This document shows, in pieces, positions 11,500-22,520 of a DNA stretch of 32,504 nucleotides (positions are counted from its first letter, which is position 1; each line of letters starts with the position of its first letter). The stretch is from an uncultured candidate division WWE3 bacterium (GTDB lineage Bacteria > Patescibacteriota > WWE3 > UBA101185 > UBA10185), in contig CAIRNR010000006.1 of NCBI GenBank assembly GCA_903879985.1, positions 1 to 32,504 of the forward strand. The letters are read 5' to 3'. The position numbers and the translations under genes were made by a program. The notes beneath the pieces are model-generated. The model saw only the letters and a list, made by a program, of their open reading frames with translations. It was not told where the DNA came from and ran no database searches.

Positions 11500-11585
11500 G
11501 CCCGGGTGGTGGAATGGCAGACACGAAAGACTTAAAATCTTTTGCCTGCAAAGGCGTGCGGGTTCGACTCCCGCCCTGGGCACCA
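11500..11585 (+). tRNA. tRNA-Leu (anticodon TAA)
   Basis: The acceptor GCCCGGG (11500-11506) pairs with CCTGGGC (11575-11581) with one G-T pair. The anticodon loop CTTAAAA gives TAA. A long variable arm marks it as class II. CCA is encoded. Its last 21 nt (11565-11585) are repeated exactly at 11713-11733. Confidence 0.97.
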
Positions 11586-11638: not shown

Positions 11639-11733
11639 GGGAGGCGAAAGGCGCAGGCGTGACGACGCCGAGCCGCGGTCGACGGTCGAGCTAGCAAGCG
11701 AGAACCGGCAACCGACTCCCGCCCTGGGCACCA
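11639..11733 (+). repeat. tRNA-tail repeat, tRNA-Leu(TAA) copy
   Basis: Begins 53 bp after tRNA-Leu(TAA). A 5' arm GGGAG (11639-11643) can pair with CTCCC (11716-11720), enclosing a GC-rich body with an internal GGCGT...ACGCC hairpin (about 11656-11669). The last 21 nt (11713-11733) are identical to the 3' end of tRNA-Leu(TAA), CCA included. Positions 11677-11708 match 25161-25192, in the tRNA-Pro tail repeat, at 30 of 32 bases. It is non-coding; function unknown. Confidence 0.7.
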
Positions 11734-11740
11734 ATAAAAA

Positions 11741-12751
11741 CTAATTTATAGTCACATCGTACTCTTTAGTCTTAATCTTAATGGGACCGGTTAAATCCAT
11801 ATTACCGTCCTTTAATATAGCCATAAAAACATCGCAACGACCAGTAGATTGTTTCCAAACGTCTTGAGTACTGGAATCGTCGGGATTTTTTAAGTCAGCC
11901 TTTCTTACATTTATCATTTCTGTTAGCCACTTTGATTCATCCACCCCATCTTTTGGACTGCCATGCATGTTCTTACTTGTCTTGTCTATTAACGCACCAA
12001 TACTATCAGGATCGTCACCTTCGCCATGTTGAATAATCGTATCGTAAAAAAATGCTCGACCCAAAGCTGAAACAACACCATTATCTTGAGCCAATTTCAA
12101 AGCCGGAAAATAATAAAGTTTATCTGTTACTTCATCCTGAGCATCACGAAAAGCTACATTTTCGTCGGCCGTTTTTTTCCAATCATCCGCAAAACCTTTT
12201 AGTTTTGATACTTTAGAACTTCCTTTTTCAGCTAAGTCTTTAAGAGTAGGTAAGTACTTTGCTAGGCGACTTTCAGTAAAACGTGTTAAGTAAAGTTTAA
12301 CAACCACATATAAATCTCCGTCGGCTGTTGTAAATCCAGCTTTTCCAGCAGTATAACCCCTGCCGTCGTCTAAATTTTCTATGTAATCATATTGAATATC
12401 GGTTTTTCCGTTTTCAAATAAACTGGTTAGTTGATCCGCACGCAATTTTTGCTCTGGAGTTAAAGAATTTAGTTCATCGGGAGTAGGTGAAGGTGTTGGT
12501 GTAGAAATCGGCGCCGAAGATTCTGGTATCTTTGCAGATGCCGTGGTACTGGCAGTAGTATCATCCAAAACACCAACTTGGCGTTCGATATTTACTAAAT
12601 TTTTTGCAGGGTCAGTTTCTGATGAATGTGTTGTCACCGAGCTTTTTGAAGAACGTCCGTTTTTGTTAGACACCACAATAAATATACCTATTCCCACAGC
12701 AAATAGTATTAATGTGACTATGAAAATGTATATGTAGTACTTTTTCATCAT
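11741..12751 (-). CDS. Membrane-anchored GH46 chitosanase
   Basis: Hydrolyses beta-1,4 bonds in chitosan (de-acetylated chitin-like polymer), outside the cell. Residues 5-28 form an N-terminal signal anchor; a Ser/Thr/Pro-rich linker follows to about 97. The catalytic domain starts with LTSLFENGK and continues QYDYIENLDDGRGYTAG, the GH46 signature. E113 (in FEN) corresponds to the general acid and D129 (in DDGRGYT) to the base; their spacing is two residues shorter than in Streptomyces CsnA. DLYVVVKLYL, FRDAQDEV, FYDTIIQHGEG and the final helices also follow the family. It is divergent from the synthase fusion gene with only 62 bp between start codons. Confidence 0.9.
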   Translation of the reverse strand: MMKKYYIYIFIVTLILFAVGIGIFIVVSNKNGRSSKSSVTTHSSETDPAKNLVNIERQVGVLDDTTASTTASAKIPESSAPISTPTPSPTPDELNSLTPEQKLRADQLTSLFENGKTDIQYDYIENLDDGRGYTAGKAGFTTADGDLYVVVKLYLTRFTESRLAKYLPTLKDLAEKGSSKVSKLKGFADDWKKTADENVAFRDAQDEVTDKLYYFPALKLAQDNGVVSALGRAFFYDTIIQHGEGDDPDSIGALIDKTSKNMHGSPKDGVDESKWLTEMINVRKADLKNPDDSSTQDVWKQSTGRCDVFMAILKDGNMDLTGPIKIKTKEYDVTIN

Positions 12752-12762
12752 GATTACGGCAA

Positions 12763-12791
12763 TTGAACTTAGCTAGCAAATAGTATATCTT
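12763..12791 (+). promoter_or_regulatory. Promoter of the GH18-NodB-GT2 gene
   Basis: TTGAAC (12763-12768), 17 bp, TATCTT (12786-12791). Transcription would start some 16 nt before the ATG at 12814; there is no Shine-Dalgarno site. The -10 box overlaps the -10 box of the opposite promoter. Confidence 0.5.
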
Positions 12792-12810
12792 ACTGTGTAC
12801 AAAAGTCGAA
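12782..12810 (-). promoter_or_regulatory. Promoter of the chitosanase gene
   Basis: On the minus strand: TTCGAC (12810-12805), 17 bp, TATACT (12787-12782). It overlaps the divergent promoter by ten bases, so two polymerases could not bind both at once. Confidence 0.5.
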
Positions 12811-12813
12811 CGT

Positions 12814-15800
12814 ATGAAATCAAGCAATAATAAAGAAAATACACAAAATCAAATTTTTTACGACAAGTCAAAAGTACGTTGGCCTATTTTCTTAATTACG
12901 GTTGGGTTGGGTATTACTCTCATTATATTTATTTATTACGGTTTAGTAAAATCGATCCAACAAAATGTCATCTTACCTCAGGTAACAATTCCAAATACAA
13001 ACACAATTACAAAAGTAGAAACACCAACTACAAATGTAAATAACGCCCAAACCACAGCACTAAAAAAGATAGCTACACTTTTTTTAGGCATAGCTAAAAA
13101 GGTCAGCGCCACACCAAACTCCTTAAATGTTGCTTTTTATCAACCTTCAGAACCTGACGGTTGGGTTTCGCTTAAAAGAAATTTGGCGACAATAAATGTA
13201 TTAATTCCTGAATGGATTTATTTAAAGGACGAAACAGGTGCAATAGGTTTATACGATACAGAAGATCAATCCAGAGTTTTAACATATCTTCAGAACAATA
13301 ACTCAGATGTAAAAGTCGAACCCTTAATAAATAATTACAGTGACACAATGCAAGACTTCGATCCTGTGTTACTTGGAAAAGTTTTGCGAAATCCCACAGC
13401 CCGCAAAAACCTAGTTGAAAATTTATATACTTACGCCACAACATATAAATTATCAGGAATTACAATTGATTTAGAAAACACCAATCCGCTAGACGAACCA
13501 TACTACAATTTATTTACTCAACAATTACACGCAAGATTTACGCCAGATAACCTTCAAGTACTTGTTGGTTTGCCTCCAGATAACGTGGACGTAAATTATT
13601 CATTCCTGTCAAAAAACAGCGATTACTTAATTTTCATGATGTACGACAATCACTGGAACACTGGTCCGGCAGGGGCTATTGCGCCACAAGATTGGTTTAT
13701 AAATTCCCTTACAAATATTTCAAAAATGGTTCCAAAAGAAAAGACACTGATAGCCCTTGGTAATTACGCATACGATTGGGATTTAACAAAAAAGACTCCA
13801 GCGGTTACCAGAACTGTTGAAGAAACGCTAAAAATGGCAAAAGACTCCGGGGCGCAGGTTCAATTTGATCAAACAACGTTAAACCCAAAATTTTCTTACG
13901 TGGACACAAATAAAGATCAGCATTCTGTTTGGTATTTGGATGCAACAACTTTTTATAACCAATTTTTAGCTACACAAAAGTTTAATATGGCAGGAATAGG
14001 GATTTGGCGACTTGGCTCCGAAGATAGTTCGATTTGGTCAATATTCAAAAACAGAGATAATCTTAGCCAAGCAATACCTGATATTTCAAATATAAATTTG
14101 GATTTATCCATTATGTATCAAGGCACCGGAGAAGTTTTAAAGGTTATATCGGCACAGCACCCAGGAAAACGCGATATAACAACAGATAAAGTAAGCGGCT
14201 TAATCACAAATCAAAACATCACTGTATATCCCGATCCATTTGAAATTCAAAGACTTGGATCAGGCGTAACACCTCAAAAACAAATAGCTCTAACATTTGA
14301 CGACGGACCTTCAAACAAATACACTCCAGAGATTTTAAAAATATTAAAAGACAATAACGTAACGGCAACTTTTTTTATTGTGGGAAGCCAAGCAAATCTT
14401 TATCCGGATATTATCAAACAAATGTATCAAGCAGGTAATGAAATCGGAAGTCATACATACACGCACCCAAACTTATCTAAAATATCAACCAACTACGAAG
14501 AAATAGAATTAAATTCAACACAAAGACTGATTGAATCTATAACCGGGCATAGTACGCTTCTTTTTAGGCCACCATTTGGAGAAGACGCTGAACCCGAAAC
14601 TCCGGAAGAAATAAATCCTGTGTTATTAACAAGTGAGCTTGGCTATTACACCGTCGGCATGGGAATTGATCCAAAAGATTGGGCACAACCTGGCAGTGAT
14701 GAAATAGTAAATCGTATCAGCGCACAATTGCAGGAAAGCGACGGTCACATAATTTTATTACACGATAGCGGTGGAGATAGGGAACAAACAATTCAAGCTT
14801 TATCAAAAATAATCTCCACGTTAAAAGACCAAGGCTATACATTTGTAAGCGTTTCCGACTTAATGGGACTTCCTAAAGATATAGTTATGCCTCCAATACA
14901 AAATCAATCGGCGTTAAATACATTTAGTAATGACGCAGGATTTATTATTCTTTCTAAATTGCTTAATCTTTTTAAAATTCTATTTTGGATAGGAATCATT
15001 TTGGGAATAGCAAGAATAGGCATAATAATTTCATTGGCTACTTTTCAAAAGTTATTTTCGAGGTTCAAAAAATTTGACGACACATACCAGCCAAAAGTTA
15101 GCGTTATTGTGCCGGCATGGAATGAGGAAAAGGTGATCATACAAACGGTTGAAACGTTATTGAAATCAGATTATAAAAACTTCGACATCTTAGTTGTAGA
15201 AAACGGATCGTCAGACAAAACCTACCGTGTCGCTCAAAAAGAATTTAGAAATAACCCAAAGGTAAAAGTATATTCATTGCCCAACGGTGGAAAATCTAAT
15301 GCGCTAAACTATGCTGCAACTATTAGCTCAGCCGAAATTCTAATTATCCAAGACGCTGACGGAATAATTTTGCCTGATACAATCTCTAAAATCGTAAAAC
15401 ATTTTGCGAATCCAAAGGTCGGTGCGGTTTCAGGTAACGTAAAAGTAGGTAACAAAATAAATATAATTACAAAATTGCAGGCCCTTGAGTACGTAATAAG
15501 TCAAAATCTGGATCGTCGCGCGTTTAGTGTTTTAAATGCAATAGCCGTTGTTCCCGGCGCAATTGGAGGCTGGCGAAAGGATGTTGTTAACAAATTGGAC
15601 GGATTTTATTCAGATACATTGGCCGAAGATACAGAATTAACTTTAAGAATTGCAAAGCTTAGTTATAAGATAGCTTACGAACAAAGCGCCATCGCTTACA
15701 CCGAAGCTCCAGAAACTATCGACGTATTTATTAAGCAACGTTTCAGGTGGATGTTTGGGACTTTCCAGGCTGCTTGGAAACATCTAAATACTTTATTTAA

Positions 15801-16209
15801 TCCAAAGTATCGTGCGATGGGATTTGTAACCATTCCGAATATAATTATTTACCAAGTTTTGTTCCCAATCGTTGCTCCTTTGCTTGATATTTTTACGATA
15901 GCCGCATTGGCCTTTGCCTTATGGCAAAGAAATATTCACACAGATATTTCATCCGATAGCCTGTATCAAATCATTGGTTTCTATCTGCTTTTTACACTTG
16001 TAGATTTTATTACTTGCATAGTGGCATTTTTGCTGGAACCCCAGGAAGATAAAAAACTTTTGATATATTTGCCATTACAGCGTTTGTTTTACAGATACCT
16101 GCTTTATGTTGTATCTATCAAATCAATGTTAACCGTTGTAAAGGGACCCTATGTAGAATGGGAGCTTAAGGAACGAAAAGGCAACTTGTTTGCTACTGAA
16201 ACTGCCTAG
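12814..16209 (+). CDS. Trifunctional fusion: GH18-like domain, NodB polysaccharide deacetylase, GT2 polymer synthase
   Basis: 1131 aa. Helix 24-45 anchors the N-terminus. Residues ~100-440 form a GH18-like barrel; SGITIDLENTN holds the catalytic pattern with D219 and E221, and GIGIWRLGSED closes the barrel. Residues ~490-690 form a NodB deacetylase with all motifs: TFDDGPS (D496, D497), SHTYTHP (H547, H551; with D497 the metal triad), RPPFGE, DPKDWAQPG and ILLHDSGG. Helices around 715-745 lead to a cytoplasmic GT2 domain from ~760: VIVPAWNEE, DAD (D847, D849), ED (938-939) and QRFRW (975-979), the processive-synthase set of PgaC, NodC and chitin synthases. Three or four helices end the protein. 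Inferred job: make a beta-linked GlcNAc polymer, export it, de-acetylate it and cut it. Confidence 0.9.
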   Translation: MKSSNNKENTQNQIFYDKSKVRWPIFLITVGLGITLIIFIYYGLVKSIQQNVILPQVTIPNTNTITKVETPTTNVNNAQTTALKKIATLFLGIAKKVSATPNSLNVAFYQPSEPDGWVSLKRNLATINVLIPEWIYLKDETGAIGLYDTEDQSRVLTYLQNNNSDVKVEPLINNYSDTMQDFDPVLLGKVLRNPTARKNLVENLYTYATTYKLSGITIDLENTNPLDEPYYNLFTQQLHARFTPDNLQVLVGLPPDNVDVNYSFLSKNSDYLIFMMYDNHWNTGPAGAIAPQDWFINSLTNISKMVPKEKTLIALGNYAYDWDLTKKTPAVTRTVEETLKMAKDSGAQVQFDQTTLNPKFSYVDTNKDQHSVWYLDATTFYNQFLATQKFNMAGIGIWRLGSEDSSIWSIFKNRDNLSQAIPDISNINLDLSIMYQGTGEVLKVISAQHPGKRDITTDKVSGLITNQNITVYPDPFEIQRLGSGVTPQKQIALTFDDGPSNKYTPEILKILKDNNVTATFFIVGSQANLYPDIIKQMYQAGNEIGSHTYTHPNLSKISTNYEEIELNSTQRLIESITGHSTLLFRPPFGEDAEPETPEEINPVLLTSELGYYTVGMGIDPKDWAQPGSDEIVNRISAQLQESDGHIILLHDSGGDREQTIQALSKIISTLKDQGYTFVSVSDLMGLPKDIVMPPIQNQSALNTFSNDAGFIILSKLLNLFKILFWIGIILGIARIGIIISLATFQKLFSRFKKFDDTYQPKVSVIVPAWNEEKVIIQTVETLLKSDYKNFDILVVENGSSDKTYRVAQKEFRNNPKVKVYSLPNGGKSNALNYAATISSAEILIIQDADGIILPDTISKIVKHFANPKVGAVSGNVKVGNKINIITKLQALEYVISQNLDRRAFSVLNAIAVVPGAIGGWRKDVVNKLDGFYSDTLAEDTELTLRIAKLSYKIAYEQSAIAYTEAPETIDVFIKQRFRWMFGTFQAAWKHLNTLFNPKYRAMGFVTIPNIIIYQVLFPIVAPLLDIFTIAALAFALWQRNIHTDISSDSLYQIIGFYLLFTLVDFITCIVAFLLEPQEDKKLLIYLPLQRLFYRYLLYVVSIKSMLTVVKGPYVEWELKERKGNLFATETA

Positions 16210-16324: not shown

Positions 16325-17008
16325 ATGAAAGTTTTAAGTAGTTTTGGCAACAATAAGTTTTTGAGAATTGGTTTGATCTTCGTGTTCATGTTCATGGCCC
16401 TGGCCGCTGTACCCACGCAACCTACGCAGGCAGCAACGATCAACGGGGGTATTCCGACAAACGATCCATGGGTATTGGTTCCTATAACGGGTCACTTGAA
16501 CACCTCCCAGGTAGATTATGCAGGCAAAGCCATTCGCCCCGACCTATTGGGTCTTTTTGATCCCACCAAGGACGCCGGAATCGGTGCACTGTGTACATCG
16601 GCGGCCAAAGCATCTTTACCTTGCTCCTGGAAAGTGACCATGTTGGCAGGAAACCCTGTTATCAACATGCGCCTCCTGTCCGGAGAAAAGTACGTGATTG
16701 CGGACATCACGGCCACAAAGGTTGCATTCAAAGATATTGTAGCCTACCCTGATAGCTACAATAATCAGACCAAGGGTTGGTACATCGAGATCCAGATGGC
16801 AACCTGGCTGCTGGAGCGCTATGGCCTTGAAAAAGTGTTTTTTGATATCGCAGGGCAATCGATAAAAACCTACGATATGGTGAACAAGCAAGCCGGCGAA
16901 CCGACCATTGGTATCCTCGAAGACATACACGGGCTTAAGCCACGTTTGATCGGAGATACCCAGTTCACACCGGTCGTAAGTAACTTGTGGTTTTATCAGA
17001 TACCATAA
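16325..17008 (+). CDS. Secreted orphan protein, 227 aa, paralogue of the 17416 gene
   Basis: Function not recognised. The N-terminus is a classic signal peptide: basic start, hydrophobic core about 15-30, cleavage expected after PTQA (about residue 36). The mature part has a Cys pair (LCTSAAKASLPC) and a segment GWYIEIQMATWLLERYGLEK that aligns with GWFTYIKVAQWLTKLGMGRL in the gene at 17416; both proteins end in a V.S..W.Y motif. G/C-rich third codon positions, a strong promoter, a Shine-Dalgarno site and its own terminator suggest high expression. Possibly an abundant cell-surface protein. Confidence 0.7.
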   Translation: MKVLSSFGNNKFLRIGLIFVFMFMALAAVPTQPTQAATINGGIPTNDPWVLVPITGHLNTSQVDYAGKAIRPDLLGLFDPTKDAGIGALCTSAAKASLPCSWKVTMLAGNPVINMRLLSGEKYVIADITATKVAFKDIVAYPDSYNNQTKGWYIEIQMATWLLERYGLEKVFFDIAGQSIKTYDMVNKQAGEPTIGILEDIHGLKPRLIGDTQFTPVVSNLWFYQIP

Positions 17009-17031: not shown

Positions 17032-17081
17032 TTAACCAAACGGAAGCTAGATATAAAAATCTACTAGCTTCCGTTTTTTTT
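17032..17081 (+). terminator. Terminator, copy 1 of an identical pair
   Basis: A 12-bp perfect stem, AACGGAAGCTAG (17039-17050) with its complement at 17064-17075, then eight T. The 50 bp at 17032-17081 are identical to 18092-18141. Confidence 0.93.
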
Positions 17082-17104
17082 GGCCTCTGTATGCCCTATA
17101 GCAT

Positions 17105-17415: not shown

Positions 17416-18078
17416 ATGGCCGGAACATTGAATCCTGTTACGGTAATTGTTCTGGCATTTCTTGCCCTATGTGCTCTTTGCTTTTTTGGGATGCAAACAC
17501 AGGGCATTCAGGTACCGGAGTTAGCAAGTCCTGACTGGAATCTGGTAAGCAGCGCAAGTGCCGAAACGCCTAAGGCCACTGATTATCAGCCAACAGATCC
17601 GTCTCAGTTTAATTTGCCGGATCCCAACGAGCACGACTTGCTTAAGAAAGTCTGCAAGGTCGTAGCAGATATAACAAAAATACCTTGCAAATGGGAAACC
17701 TATCAGGCAAAGACCGCAGATGGCCATTTGGTTGTTAAAGCCAAACTAGTCTCTGGCGACGCCACCCTGGCTGAAATTGAAGCCATGGATATGCCCCTAA
17801 CTGAAGTCACGGAATTAGGCAGTGAATCATACGGTGGTGCAACCCACGGGTGGTTCACATACATCAAGGTTGCCCAATGGCTGACAAAGCTAGGAATGGG
17901 CAGATTGATGTGGGAAACTTGCGACCATATACTCGTCGTAACTTCCCAGAGCGTATTCGGCGAGACCCAAGCTCTGCATATTTTCGTCGATGCCGCCGGC
18001 TGGGGAGAATCTCTACTCGCAAGCGTCCCAGATAAACTGCAAGTCACATCGCAAATCTGGCTCTACTTCGTAAAATAA
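17416..18078 (+). CDS. Membrane-anchored orphan protein, 220 aa, paralogue of the 16325 gene
   Basis: Function not recognised. Residues 8-26 are a hydrophobic helix (VTVIVLAFLALCALCFF) serving as signal anchor or signal peptide. A Pro/Ser/Thr-rich linker follows, then a domain alignable to the 16325 product: a conserved IPC.W after a helix with a second Cys, L.SG strands, a Gly-Trp-aromatic start to an amphipathic helix, and a W.Y ending. Similarity is low but continuous, and both genes carry the identical downstream terminator, so a tandem duplication followed by divergence is likely. It is translated in a coupled pair with the 17190 gene. Confidence 0.7.
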   Translation: MAGTLNPVTVIVLAFLALCALCFFGMQTQGIQVPELASPDWNLVSSASAETPKATDYQPTDPSQFNLPDPNEHDLLKKVCKVVADITKIPCKWETYQAKTADGHLVVKAKLVSGDATLAEIEAMDMPLTEVTELGSESYGGATHGWFTYIKVAQWLTKLGMGRLMWETCDHILVVTSQSVFGETQALHIFVDAAGWGESLLASVPDKLQVTSQIWLYFVK

Positions 18079-18091
18079 AAGTAAACCAGAA

Positions 18092-18141
18092 TTAACCAAA
18101 CGGAAGCTAGATATAAAAATCTACTAGCTTCCGTTTTTTTT
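18092..18141 (+). terminator. Terminator, copy 2 of an identical pair
   Basis: Stem 18099-18110 with 18124-18135, then eight T; 50 of 50 bases identical to 17032-17081. Confidence 0.93.
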
Positions 18142-18223
18142 CGCCAATTCGCGACATCACCAATTCTCAACAAAATATACCCAGCTTTTTCCCAAAAAAC
18201 CCCACCGTGATAAACTACAAGTA

Positions 18224-20827: not shown

Positions 20828-20904
20828 CGGGGTGTAGCTCAGTTGGCTAGAGTGCGCGGTTTGGGACCGTGAGGTCGCAGGTTCGAATCCTGTCACCCCG
20901 ACCA
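20828..20904 (+). tRNA. tRNA-Pro (anticodon TGG), integration site
   Basis: The acceptor CGGGGTG (20828-20834) pairs with CACCCCG (20894-20900). The anticodon loop TTTGGGA gives TGG; the T-arm is intact and CCA is encoded. The 3' end is the left junction of an integrated element. The recombinase reading frame runs antisense into the gene as far as 20847. Confidence 0.97.
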
Positions 20905-22520
20905 AAAGATAGAAAGCCTTTTTCAGCAAAGTCTCTAAAAGGCGAATTTAGTTCGTATGACAGCATTTTTTTATCCTTCAAAACGATATTCGAGAAGATT
21001 TTTCTCAGTGTAAAATCAATTTCAACTAGTTTAGGCTTTCCTTCAAGTCTTGACGCCAAATTCTTGAACTGTTCGAGAAATTTCTCATAACTGACAGTTA
21101 AGTCCCTGTTTTCATTTTTCTCCCGCTCGACATCACTTAAATTCTTTGTTATGCGCGCTATATTTTCGATTGCTTTTGGTATGTCGCACTCAAAGGTTGC
21201 AACCAAAGTAGCTTCTTTTCGTTGCTGTGCATCAAGCAAATACTGCTTCAAACTATCTAATCGCTTTTCCTCTTTCATCTTGGTCGCCTGCAATGCCTTC
21301 CTACGCATTTCAAGCTCTTTGTTGCGTTCGGATATAACTCTTTTCATTTCAGCCTGATAATGGTCGTATAGAGCCTTTTCAGCCATTATTTTAATATCTT
21401 TTAATACAGCGTAAGCACCCTCAACCGCTACCTTTGCCCGTTCTGATTTATTGAATTTTTCACACATGGGGTTTTCACAGCGGTAATAGTAAGTTAGCTT
21501 ATTGTTGTTTGAATTCAATCCCGAAGAATAGGGTTGACCACAATACCCGCATATAACAATACCTCGTAGTAAGTCTGCCTTAACTTTGCGCTTTTCCTTA
21601 AATAAACGCCTAATAGCTTTACCAACTTTGAAATCATCTTTGTTAATCAACATGTAATTATCAACGCTAACTGCGGGTATAAAACCAAGGACTTGTTCTG
21701 TAAGGTCAACAACCCTACCACCATTTCTCAAAGCTCCTGCGTAAAAAGGGTCACTAAACATACGAGATAAGCTGTTTTCATCAAACTTAAATGAAATACG
21801 TTTCGAACCTGAAATACCACGGGCGTCCGTGTAATCGGTTTTGTCCAAATAATCCACTATTGCGTCAAGCGTATGTCCTTCTACACGATACTTGAAAGCC
21901 TGTTTGATATACTCGAAATTCTTTCCGTCAGCATGAGGTAGATGTTGATTATCACGATAGTATCCGTGTTTAGTTACATTAAGTAATTTCCCTTCATAAG
22001 TTCGATTTTCCACGCCACGCTTTACGTCTTGGCTTAATTTATCCGAGTATTCTTTTGACATAACAAAAGTCATACCAAGTAGCATCTTTCCTGATGGGGT
22101 ATTCTCAAAAGAGAAACTTGCAAACTTCAAGTCTTTAATTATCCGTTTATCCAAGAGGTCGATTATTTCTCCCGCCTCACGCATATTTCTTGATAGTCTA
22201 TCGGGGTGCCATGCCAAAATTCCTTGGTATTTATTCCTTGCGATGTCATCAAGCATTTCACGAAACAAAGGTCTTTTGTTGTAATCCTTTGCGCTTTGGT
22301 CTTCTTGAATAACTTTCACAACATTCAATCCCAAAGCCGAGGACAACTGCATACATGCAGATATTTGGTCTTCTAATGACTTGGGCTGACGCTTTTCGTC
22401 AATTGTGCTTTTACGGACATAGAGGCAATAATTTATAACCTCGGGTTCTTCGGTGACATTGTTGGTTTTACCAAGTAGGACATTTACTAAATCCTGTGTG
22501 GTGTAGGTGACTTCTGCCAT
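20847..22520 (-). CDS. Large serine recombinase (integrase)
   Basis: 557 aa. The resolvase-type catalytic domain has YVRKS with the nucleophile S38 and R36, and HPDRLSR with R108 and R111. A recombinase domain (~180-290) and a zinc ribbon (C324, C327, C348, C353) follow, then a long charged coiled coil (~385-480), as in phiC31-type integrases. It joins short att sites with a two-base crossover. The gene points toward tRNA-Pro, and its last ~19 codons (GDRIRTCDLTVPNRAL) are read from the antisense of the tRNA; on excision this end would be replaced by the other half-site. It lacks an obvious Shine-Dalgarno site. Confidence 0.93.
   Translation of the reverse strand: MAEVTYTTQDLVNVLLGKTNNVTEEPEVINYCLYVRKSTIDEKRQPKSLEDQISACMQLSSALGLNVVKVIQEDQSAKDYNKRPLFREMLDDIARNKYQGILAWHPDRLSRNMREAGEIIDLLDKRIIKDLKFASFSFENTPSGKMLLGMTFVMSKEYSDKLSQDVKRGVENRTYEGKLLNVTKHGYYRDNQHLPHADGKNFEYIKQAFKYRVEGHTLDAIVDYLDKTDYTDARGISGSKRISFKFDENSLSRMFSDPFYAGALRNGGRVVDLTEQVLGFIPAVSVDNYMLINKDDFKVGKAIRRLFKEKRKVKADLLRGIVICGYCGQPYSSGLNSNNNKLTYYYRCENPMCEKFNKSERAKVAVEGAYAVLKDIKIMAEKALYDHYQAEMKRVISERNKELEMRRKALQATKMKEEKRLDSLKQYLLDAQQRKEATLVATFECDIPKAIENIARITKNLSDVEREKNENRDLTVSYEKFLEQFKNLASRLEGKPKLVEIDFTLRKIFSNIVLKDKKMLSYELNSPFRDFAEKGFLSFGRGDRIRTCDLTVPNRAL
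20897..20904 (+). other. attL core at the 3' end of tRNA-Pro
   Basis: CCCGACCA, the last 8 nt of tRNA-Pro, recurs at 25058-25065. The recombinase gene lies directly inside. Confidence 0.6.

Follow-up and report, generated by a model that had tools for sequence, protein, structure and literature searches.

The window analysed here, a stretch of 32,504 nt from an uncultured candidate division WWE3 bacterium, encodes a predicted membrane-anchored GH46 chitosanase beside a single large protein in which GH18, CE4/NodB and GT2 domains are fused. The best explanation for this locus, to which we assign a probability of roughly 0.6, is that it serves a synthase-dependent, partly deacetylated poly-GlcNAc surface polymer provided with a dedicated hydrolase. 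As originally predicted, the two ORFs (336 and 1131 aa) are divergent and separated by 62 bp. The features of the locus, in coordinates of the window, are the following:

11741..12751, minus strand: GH46 chitosanase gene, 336 aa, membrane-anchored (Pfam PF01374 and identity to 7c6c)
12671..12727, minus strand: transmembrane anchor at the N terminus, aa 9-27, with a linker rich in Ser, Thr and Pro after it (hydropathy peak 3.16; sequence)
11780..12433, minus strand: GH46 catalytic domain, aa 107-324, with acid E113, base D129, R131, T134 and D146
12752..12813, no strand: intergenic gap of 62 bp, with promoter-like hexamers at the level expected by chance
12814..16209, plus strand: GH18-CE4-GT2 fusion gene, 1131 aa (ORF, Pfam, NCBIfam, alignment)
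12892..12948, plus strand: transmembrane segment 1 of the fusion, aa 27-45 (hydropathy)
13066..14016, plus strand: GH18 domain, aa 85-401, with D219 and E221 (PF00704; motif)
14266..14865, plus strand: CE4/NodB deacetylase domain, aa 485-684, with D496-D497, H547, H551, RPPF, DPKDW and LLHD (PF01522; motifs)
14977..15033, plus strand: transmembrane segment 2, aa 722-740, separating GT2 from the outer domains (hydropathy)
15091..15759, plus strand: processive GT2 synthase domain, aa 760-982, with ENGS, DAD, ED and QRFRW (PF13641; motifs)
15817..16035, plus strand: C-terminal transmembrane segments of the synthase (hydropathy)
16325..17008, plus strand: first of two paralogous small proteins, secreted or anchored, possibly accessory (no Pfam/NCBIfam match)
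17416..18078, plus strand: second small secreted or anchored paralogue, possible accessory (no Pfam/NCBIfam match)

The GH46 ORF matched PF01374 in a Pfam search with 195.5 bits (cut-off 27) and covered the whole domain, positions 1-210 of the 210 in the profile. The protein is 54% identical to the solved Bacillus chitosanase 7c6c and belongs to the Bacillus kind, cluster B, as classed in PMC4663542. E113, D129, R131 and T134 aligned to E22, D40, R42 and T45 of CsnN174, and these residues, together with D146, agree with those listed for characterised GH46 enzymes (roles in PMC4663542, Table 1). The protein is thus a predicted chitosanase with every key residue in place, and the anchoring helix and the catalytic Glu and Asp that had been proposed for it were confirmed. 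GH46 enzymes are known solely as beta-1,4 chitosanases, specific for chitosan, and the roles recorded for them are chitosan assimilation, chitosan protection, antifungal action and algal wall lysis (PMC4663542).

All three domains claimed for the fusion also scored above their Pfam cut-offs. GH18 matched PF00704 with 62.1 bits (cut-off 29.6), and its DxxDxDxE motif retains D219 and the catalytic E221 while the two earlier Asp are missing. CE4 matched Polysacc_deac_1 (PF01522) with 122.9 bits over aa 485-590, and the metal triad and catalytic base (D496-D497, H547 and H551) are present, as are motifs 3 to 5. GT2 matched PF13641 with 109.1 bits and has the marks of a processive synthase, namely DAD (847-849), ED (938-939), QRFRW (975-979) and helices that reach residue 1074. 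Its first UDP-binding motif is ENGS (N797), the second position of which is Asp in 13 of the 13 other fusions compared, and this difference from its relatives counts against our explanation. The variant is no demonstration of inactivity, since acid-Asn-Gly-Ser is common among other GT2 enzymes. The hydropathy profile placed helices at aa 27-45 and 722-740, on either side of the GH18-CE4 region, and three peaks C-terminal to GT2. Because GH18 and CE4 are bracketed by two transmembrane segments, the simplest reading is that both are outside and GT2 inside. In the same genome, three adjoining but unfused genes are found on contig C4 (L039 5258-8541), encoding a GH18 protein, a DUF2334/CE4-like protein that weakly matches LysM, and a GT2 of processive type.

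We then looked at how GH46 is distributed, using survey samples that overlap. It was found in the window genome alone among 57 relatives and proved very rare across the phylum sample (2 of 380 genomes); it scored over the cut-off in 3 of 286 genomes from the class of the second carrier and was present in 3 of 41 genomes searched in that carrier's family (f62) and in 1 of 45 searched in the window's own class, in which the GH46-fusion pair is private to the window genome. A weak match in G442 (18 bits, below the cut-off) was set aside. This left four confident carriers, the window genome (G000) and three members of f62 (G334, G607 and G562). The neighbours of the chitosanase did not differ at random from genome to genome, in agreement with the original prediction: all four carriers have a full-length GH18-CE4-GT2 fusion, which is adjacent to GH46 in three of them. 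In G334 and G607, GH46, the fusion and a GH18-CE4 gene form a tandem array on a single strand, close to a CBM-CE4 gene, and in G562 the full fusion is on a separate contig and GH46 is located 37 bp behind a CBM-CE4 gene. Co-occurrence was thus observed in all four carriers, but the divergent orientation was limited to the window genome.

In the phylum sample, scanned for GH46 in 380 genomes and for the fusion in 362, CE4 and GT2 shared one frame in six genomes, both GH46 carriers included (P = 2e-4); within f62, the three GH46 carriers were all among the six fusion genomes of 41, one of the six being cut by a contig end (P = 2e-3). Both P values are naive, in that they ignore relatedness. Fusions in genomes that lack GH46 (G648, G575 and four f19 genomes) count against our explanation. 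In G334, G607 and G562 the CE4 domain of the fusion no longer has its metal ligands (DDG is replaced by DGG or SGG, and HxxxH is missing), yet separate CE4 proteins with intact motifs are encoded near GH46, either in the same cluster or, in G562, at the distance of 37 bp. Synthase, deacetylase and chitosanase are therefore kept together as a set in the carriers. The G648 and G575 fusions have intact CE4 motifs. The retention of a deacetylase wherever GH46 occurs agrees with a requirement of GH46 for substrate that has been deacetylated. Taken together, a pairing that is rare and recurs in distant relatives suggests more than coincidence, and that the cutting enzyme serves the cell's own polymer.

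To what extent these pairings are independent was addressed with a tree of 14 fusions. The window copy was placed near Deinococcus and G648 with modest support, and the G334, G607 and G562 copies formed a well supported clade with that of G575, a genome without GH46. A single clade of the four GH46-associated fusions was rejected (AU p = 6e-6), a result to which domain decay in the G334/G607/G562 group may contribute. With the window fusion and those of the other carriers on different branches, the pairing seems, on this phylogeny, to have arisen at least twice, and as only four genomes carry it, three from one family, the independent events number about two or three. The GH46 tree had no resolution inside cluster B and therefore gives no firm count of GH46 gains.

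Full-length, collinear homologues of the fusion were identified in a six-way alignment and in 22 plasmid records, where the match covers 80% or more. The triple fusion itself is not new; it is widespread in other phyla (Deinococcus, sphingomonads, Prevotella, Sulfitobacter), and the novelty of the locus is accordingly narrower than had been claimed. No GH46 was annotated within 8 kb of the triple fusions of Deinococcus, Sphingomonas, Prevotella and Sulfitobacter and, conversely, flanks of 1-10 kb around nine GH46 loci of actinobacteria, rhizobia, staphylococci and phage gave no GH18, CE4 or GT2 match. Neither the triple fusion nor a role for a chitosanase in Patescibacteria turned up in exact-word searches of open papers. 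A viral origin of GH46 was rejected, as the viral contigs gave no confirmed relative and the phage copies are only ∼33% identical. Other neighbourhoods also came to light: on a Kocuria plasmid (L095 4734-8039) a CE4-GT2 fusion is convergent with a gene annotated as chitinase, another case of a synthase next to a hydrolase; at L085 5142-9333 the CE4-GT2 fusion of G107 precedes, in the same orientation, a gene whose protein resembles GH16 by eye; and on two Staphylococcus epidermidis plasmids (L102 and L185) a GH46 chitosanase is followed by a GH5/cellulase-family protein.

Regarding the origin of the locus, the genes downstream (MacB-like, TsaC-like, tRNA-Pro, a lysozyme-like pair and tRNA-Leu) occur in the same order in G020, a genome of the same family, which has different genes upstream of this syntenic block, and the best match of the MacB-like gene is in the same family. 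That the contig, which is 104,991 bp long, is a binning artefact was rejected on the basis of this synteny and of the MacB-like match. The contig therefore belongs to this lineage, into whose chromosome the locus seems to have been inserted. The 3' end of tRNA-Leu(TAA) is present as an exact 21-bp duplication (11565-11585 and 11713-11733, 148 bp apart), with 8 bp separating one copy from the stop codon of GH46; it resembles the scar of an attachment site. The two small secreted paralogues downstream of the fusion share 24% identity and were found in no other of 38 relatives. Each of them is directly followed by one of two 54-bp copies (17032-17085 and 18092-18145; 98% identical) consisting of an inverted repeat and then a T run, that is, duplicated terminators. 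Further downstream, at 20828-22520, the reading frame of a large serine recombinase extends into tRNA-Pro; because the flanks are the same in G020 but without the recombinase, an element is probably integrated at this tRNA.

This setting bears on a reading in which GH46 faces outward and breaks down chitosan of foreign origin (fungal walls, debris), whether to feed, to protect the cell or to attack, its position beside the fusion being due to chance or to a shared surface-gene island. The recorded roles of GH46 enzymes agree with it, and the locus looks acquired: the 44 other class members searched lack it, the genes upstream of the block shared with G020 differ, and the tRNA duplication sits beside GH46. 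Nonetheless, we regard this reading as unlikely, because adjacency or co-occurrence recurs on separate fusion branches, the window enzyme is predicted to be membrane-anchored and that of G334 has, by eye, a lipobox-like LSAGC start, and chitosan uptake genes beside GH46 were not noticed.

The intergenic gap had been proposed to hold two promoters whose -10 boxes overlap, so that transcription of the two genes would be mutually exclusive. A promoter scan of 400 bp found 2 promoter-like sites against 2.2 expected, one of them on the minus strand inside the gap. The -10 box that had been claimed on the plus strand reads TATCTT, and in 10% of shuffles of the 62-bp gap an equally good pair appeared on both strands. 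The overlapping promoters were therefore rejected as evidence of a regulatory switch, which is not supported: the sites are at chance level and the layout is not conserved, the other adjacent pairs being tandem.

As for the polymer, a chitosan- or PNAG-like product is a reasonable inference from the predicted domains. The fusion scored below the equivalog cut-offs of both TIGR03937 (PgaC/IcaA PNAG synthase; 178.1 bits, cut-off 422.3) and TIGR04242 (NodC chitooligosaccharide synthase; 96.5 bits, cut-off 550). In a GT2 tree with long branches, NodC was outside, PgaC/IcaA clustered with the Kocuria CE4-GT2 protein and the fusions did not fall within the PgaC branch. By score, GT2 is closer to the PNAG synthases, which are beta-1,6, whereas the presence of GH46, which is beta-1,4-specific (PMC4663542), points to the linkage of chitosan; this disagreement also counts against our explanation. 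A PNAG-like beta-1,6 polymer on which GH46 does not act, made by a fusion of the MatB/PgaC type with its own GH18 as hydrolase, would accord with the higher PgaC/IcaA score, with the position of NodC in the tree and with the fact that MatB makes PNAG (PMC5972031). This seems quite improbable to us, given that 178 bits is far under the PgaC cut-off, that the fusions lie apart from the PgaC branch and that the association with GH46 would be left unexplained. Peptidoglycan remodelling, suggested by the likeness of CE4 and GH18 to spore-cortex and cell-wall enzymes (PdaB is the best NCBIfam match of CE4; YdhD and cortical-lytic enzymes are the best structural relatives of GH18) and by the lysozyme-like fold of GH46, is very hard to reconcile with a processive synthase fused to CE4 and GH18, with the chitosan specificity recorded for GH46 and with the placement of GH46 proteins that have peptidoglycan-binding modules in a different cluster.

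We infer the substrate, the linkage, the deacetylation of a self-made polymer and the action of GH46 on it. According to the dedicated-hydrolase explanation, the C-terminal GT2 would polymerise a UDP-sugar, most likely UDP-GlcNAc, at the inner face and move the chain across the membrane; the outer GH18 and CE4 would trim the emerging chain and N-deacetylate it in part; and GH46, anchored outside by its N-terminal helix, would cut the deacetylated stretches, which might set chain length, free the cell from the polymer or clear the polymer. A bolder proposal, which we put forward tentatively and with more doubt than belief, is that in some Patescibacteria one protein, combining synthase, deacetylase and hydrolase, makes a true bacterial chitosan (poly-GlcNAc that is beta-1,4-linked and deacetylated in part), which these cells manage by means of a chitosanase dedicated to it. 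Natural chitosan is confined to chitin-making organisms according to the GH46 review (PMC4663542), so this proposal, if true, would add bacteria to the sources of chitosan and give GH46 a new role, directed at the producing cell itself. The recurrent link between GH46 and the fusion suggests that chitosanases of this family can act in the service of the polymer made by their own cell, and it offers independent information on what the widespread, apparently uncharacterised GH18-CE4-GT2 fusions produce. The lifestyle of Patescibacteria is believed to be one of attachment to other cells, and little is known about how they adhere and let go. An amino-sugar polymer at the surface, together with an enzyme matched to cut it, would provide a concrete mechanism for attachment and release.

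Among known systems, MatB of Streptomyces is a cytoplasmic GT2 joined by a helix to an outer CE4 (PMC5972031), and domain order and hydropathy predict the same topology of outer CE4, helix and inner processive GT2 in the fusion; MatB, however, lacks a GH18 domain, requires MatA and has no chitosanase described alongside. PgaABCD and IcaADBC likewise combine a GT2 synthase with a deacetylase, and PgaB also bears a hydrolase domain for the product, but these are separate proteins, with GH153 in place of GH18 and GH46 and, for PgaABCD, an outer-membrane porin (PgaA), and the window GT2 scores under the NCBIfam PgaC cut-off. The fusions of Deinococcus, Sphingomonas, Prevotella and Sulfitobacter, annotated as 'glycosyltransferase', have the same domain order over their full length at 31-39% identity and differ in the lack of an annotated GH46 within the 8 kb around them. 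The cluster B enzymes (Bacillus Csn, CsnMY002) resemble the window GH46 in identity (54%) and in all key residues, although Bacillus Csn is required for growth on chitosan (PMC4663542) whereas the window enzyme would be anchored beside a synthase. Finally, the BcsZ cellulase of cellulose operons follows the same logic, a dedicated hydrolase encoded together with the synthase whose product it cuts, but for another polymer and with other families and architecture, and the GH153 domain of PgaB is a dedicated hydrolase within a synthase locus (PMC5933820). Since dedicated hydrolases in synthase loci are thus already known, the arrangement proposed here represents a variation on a known logic.
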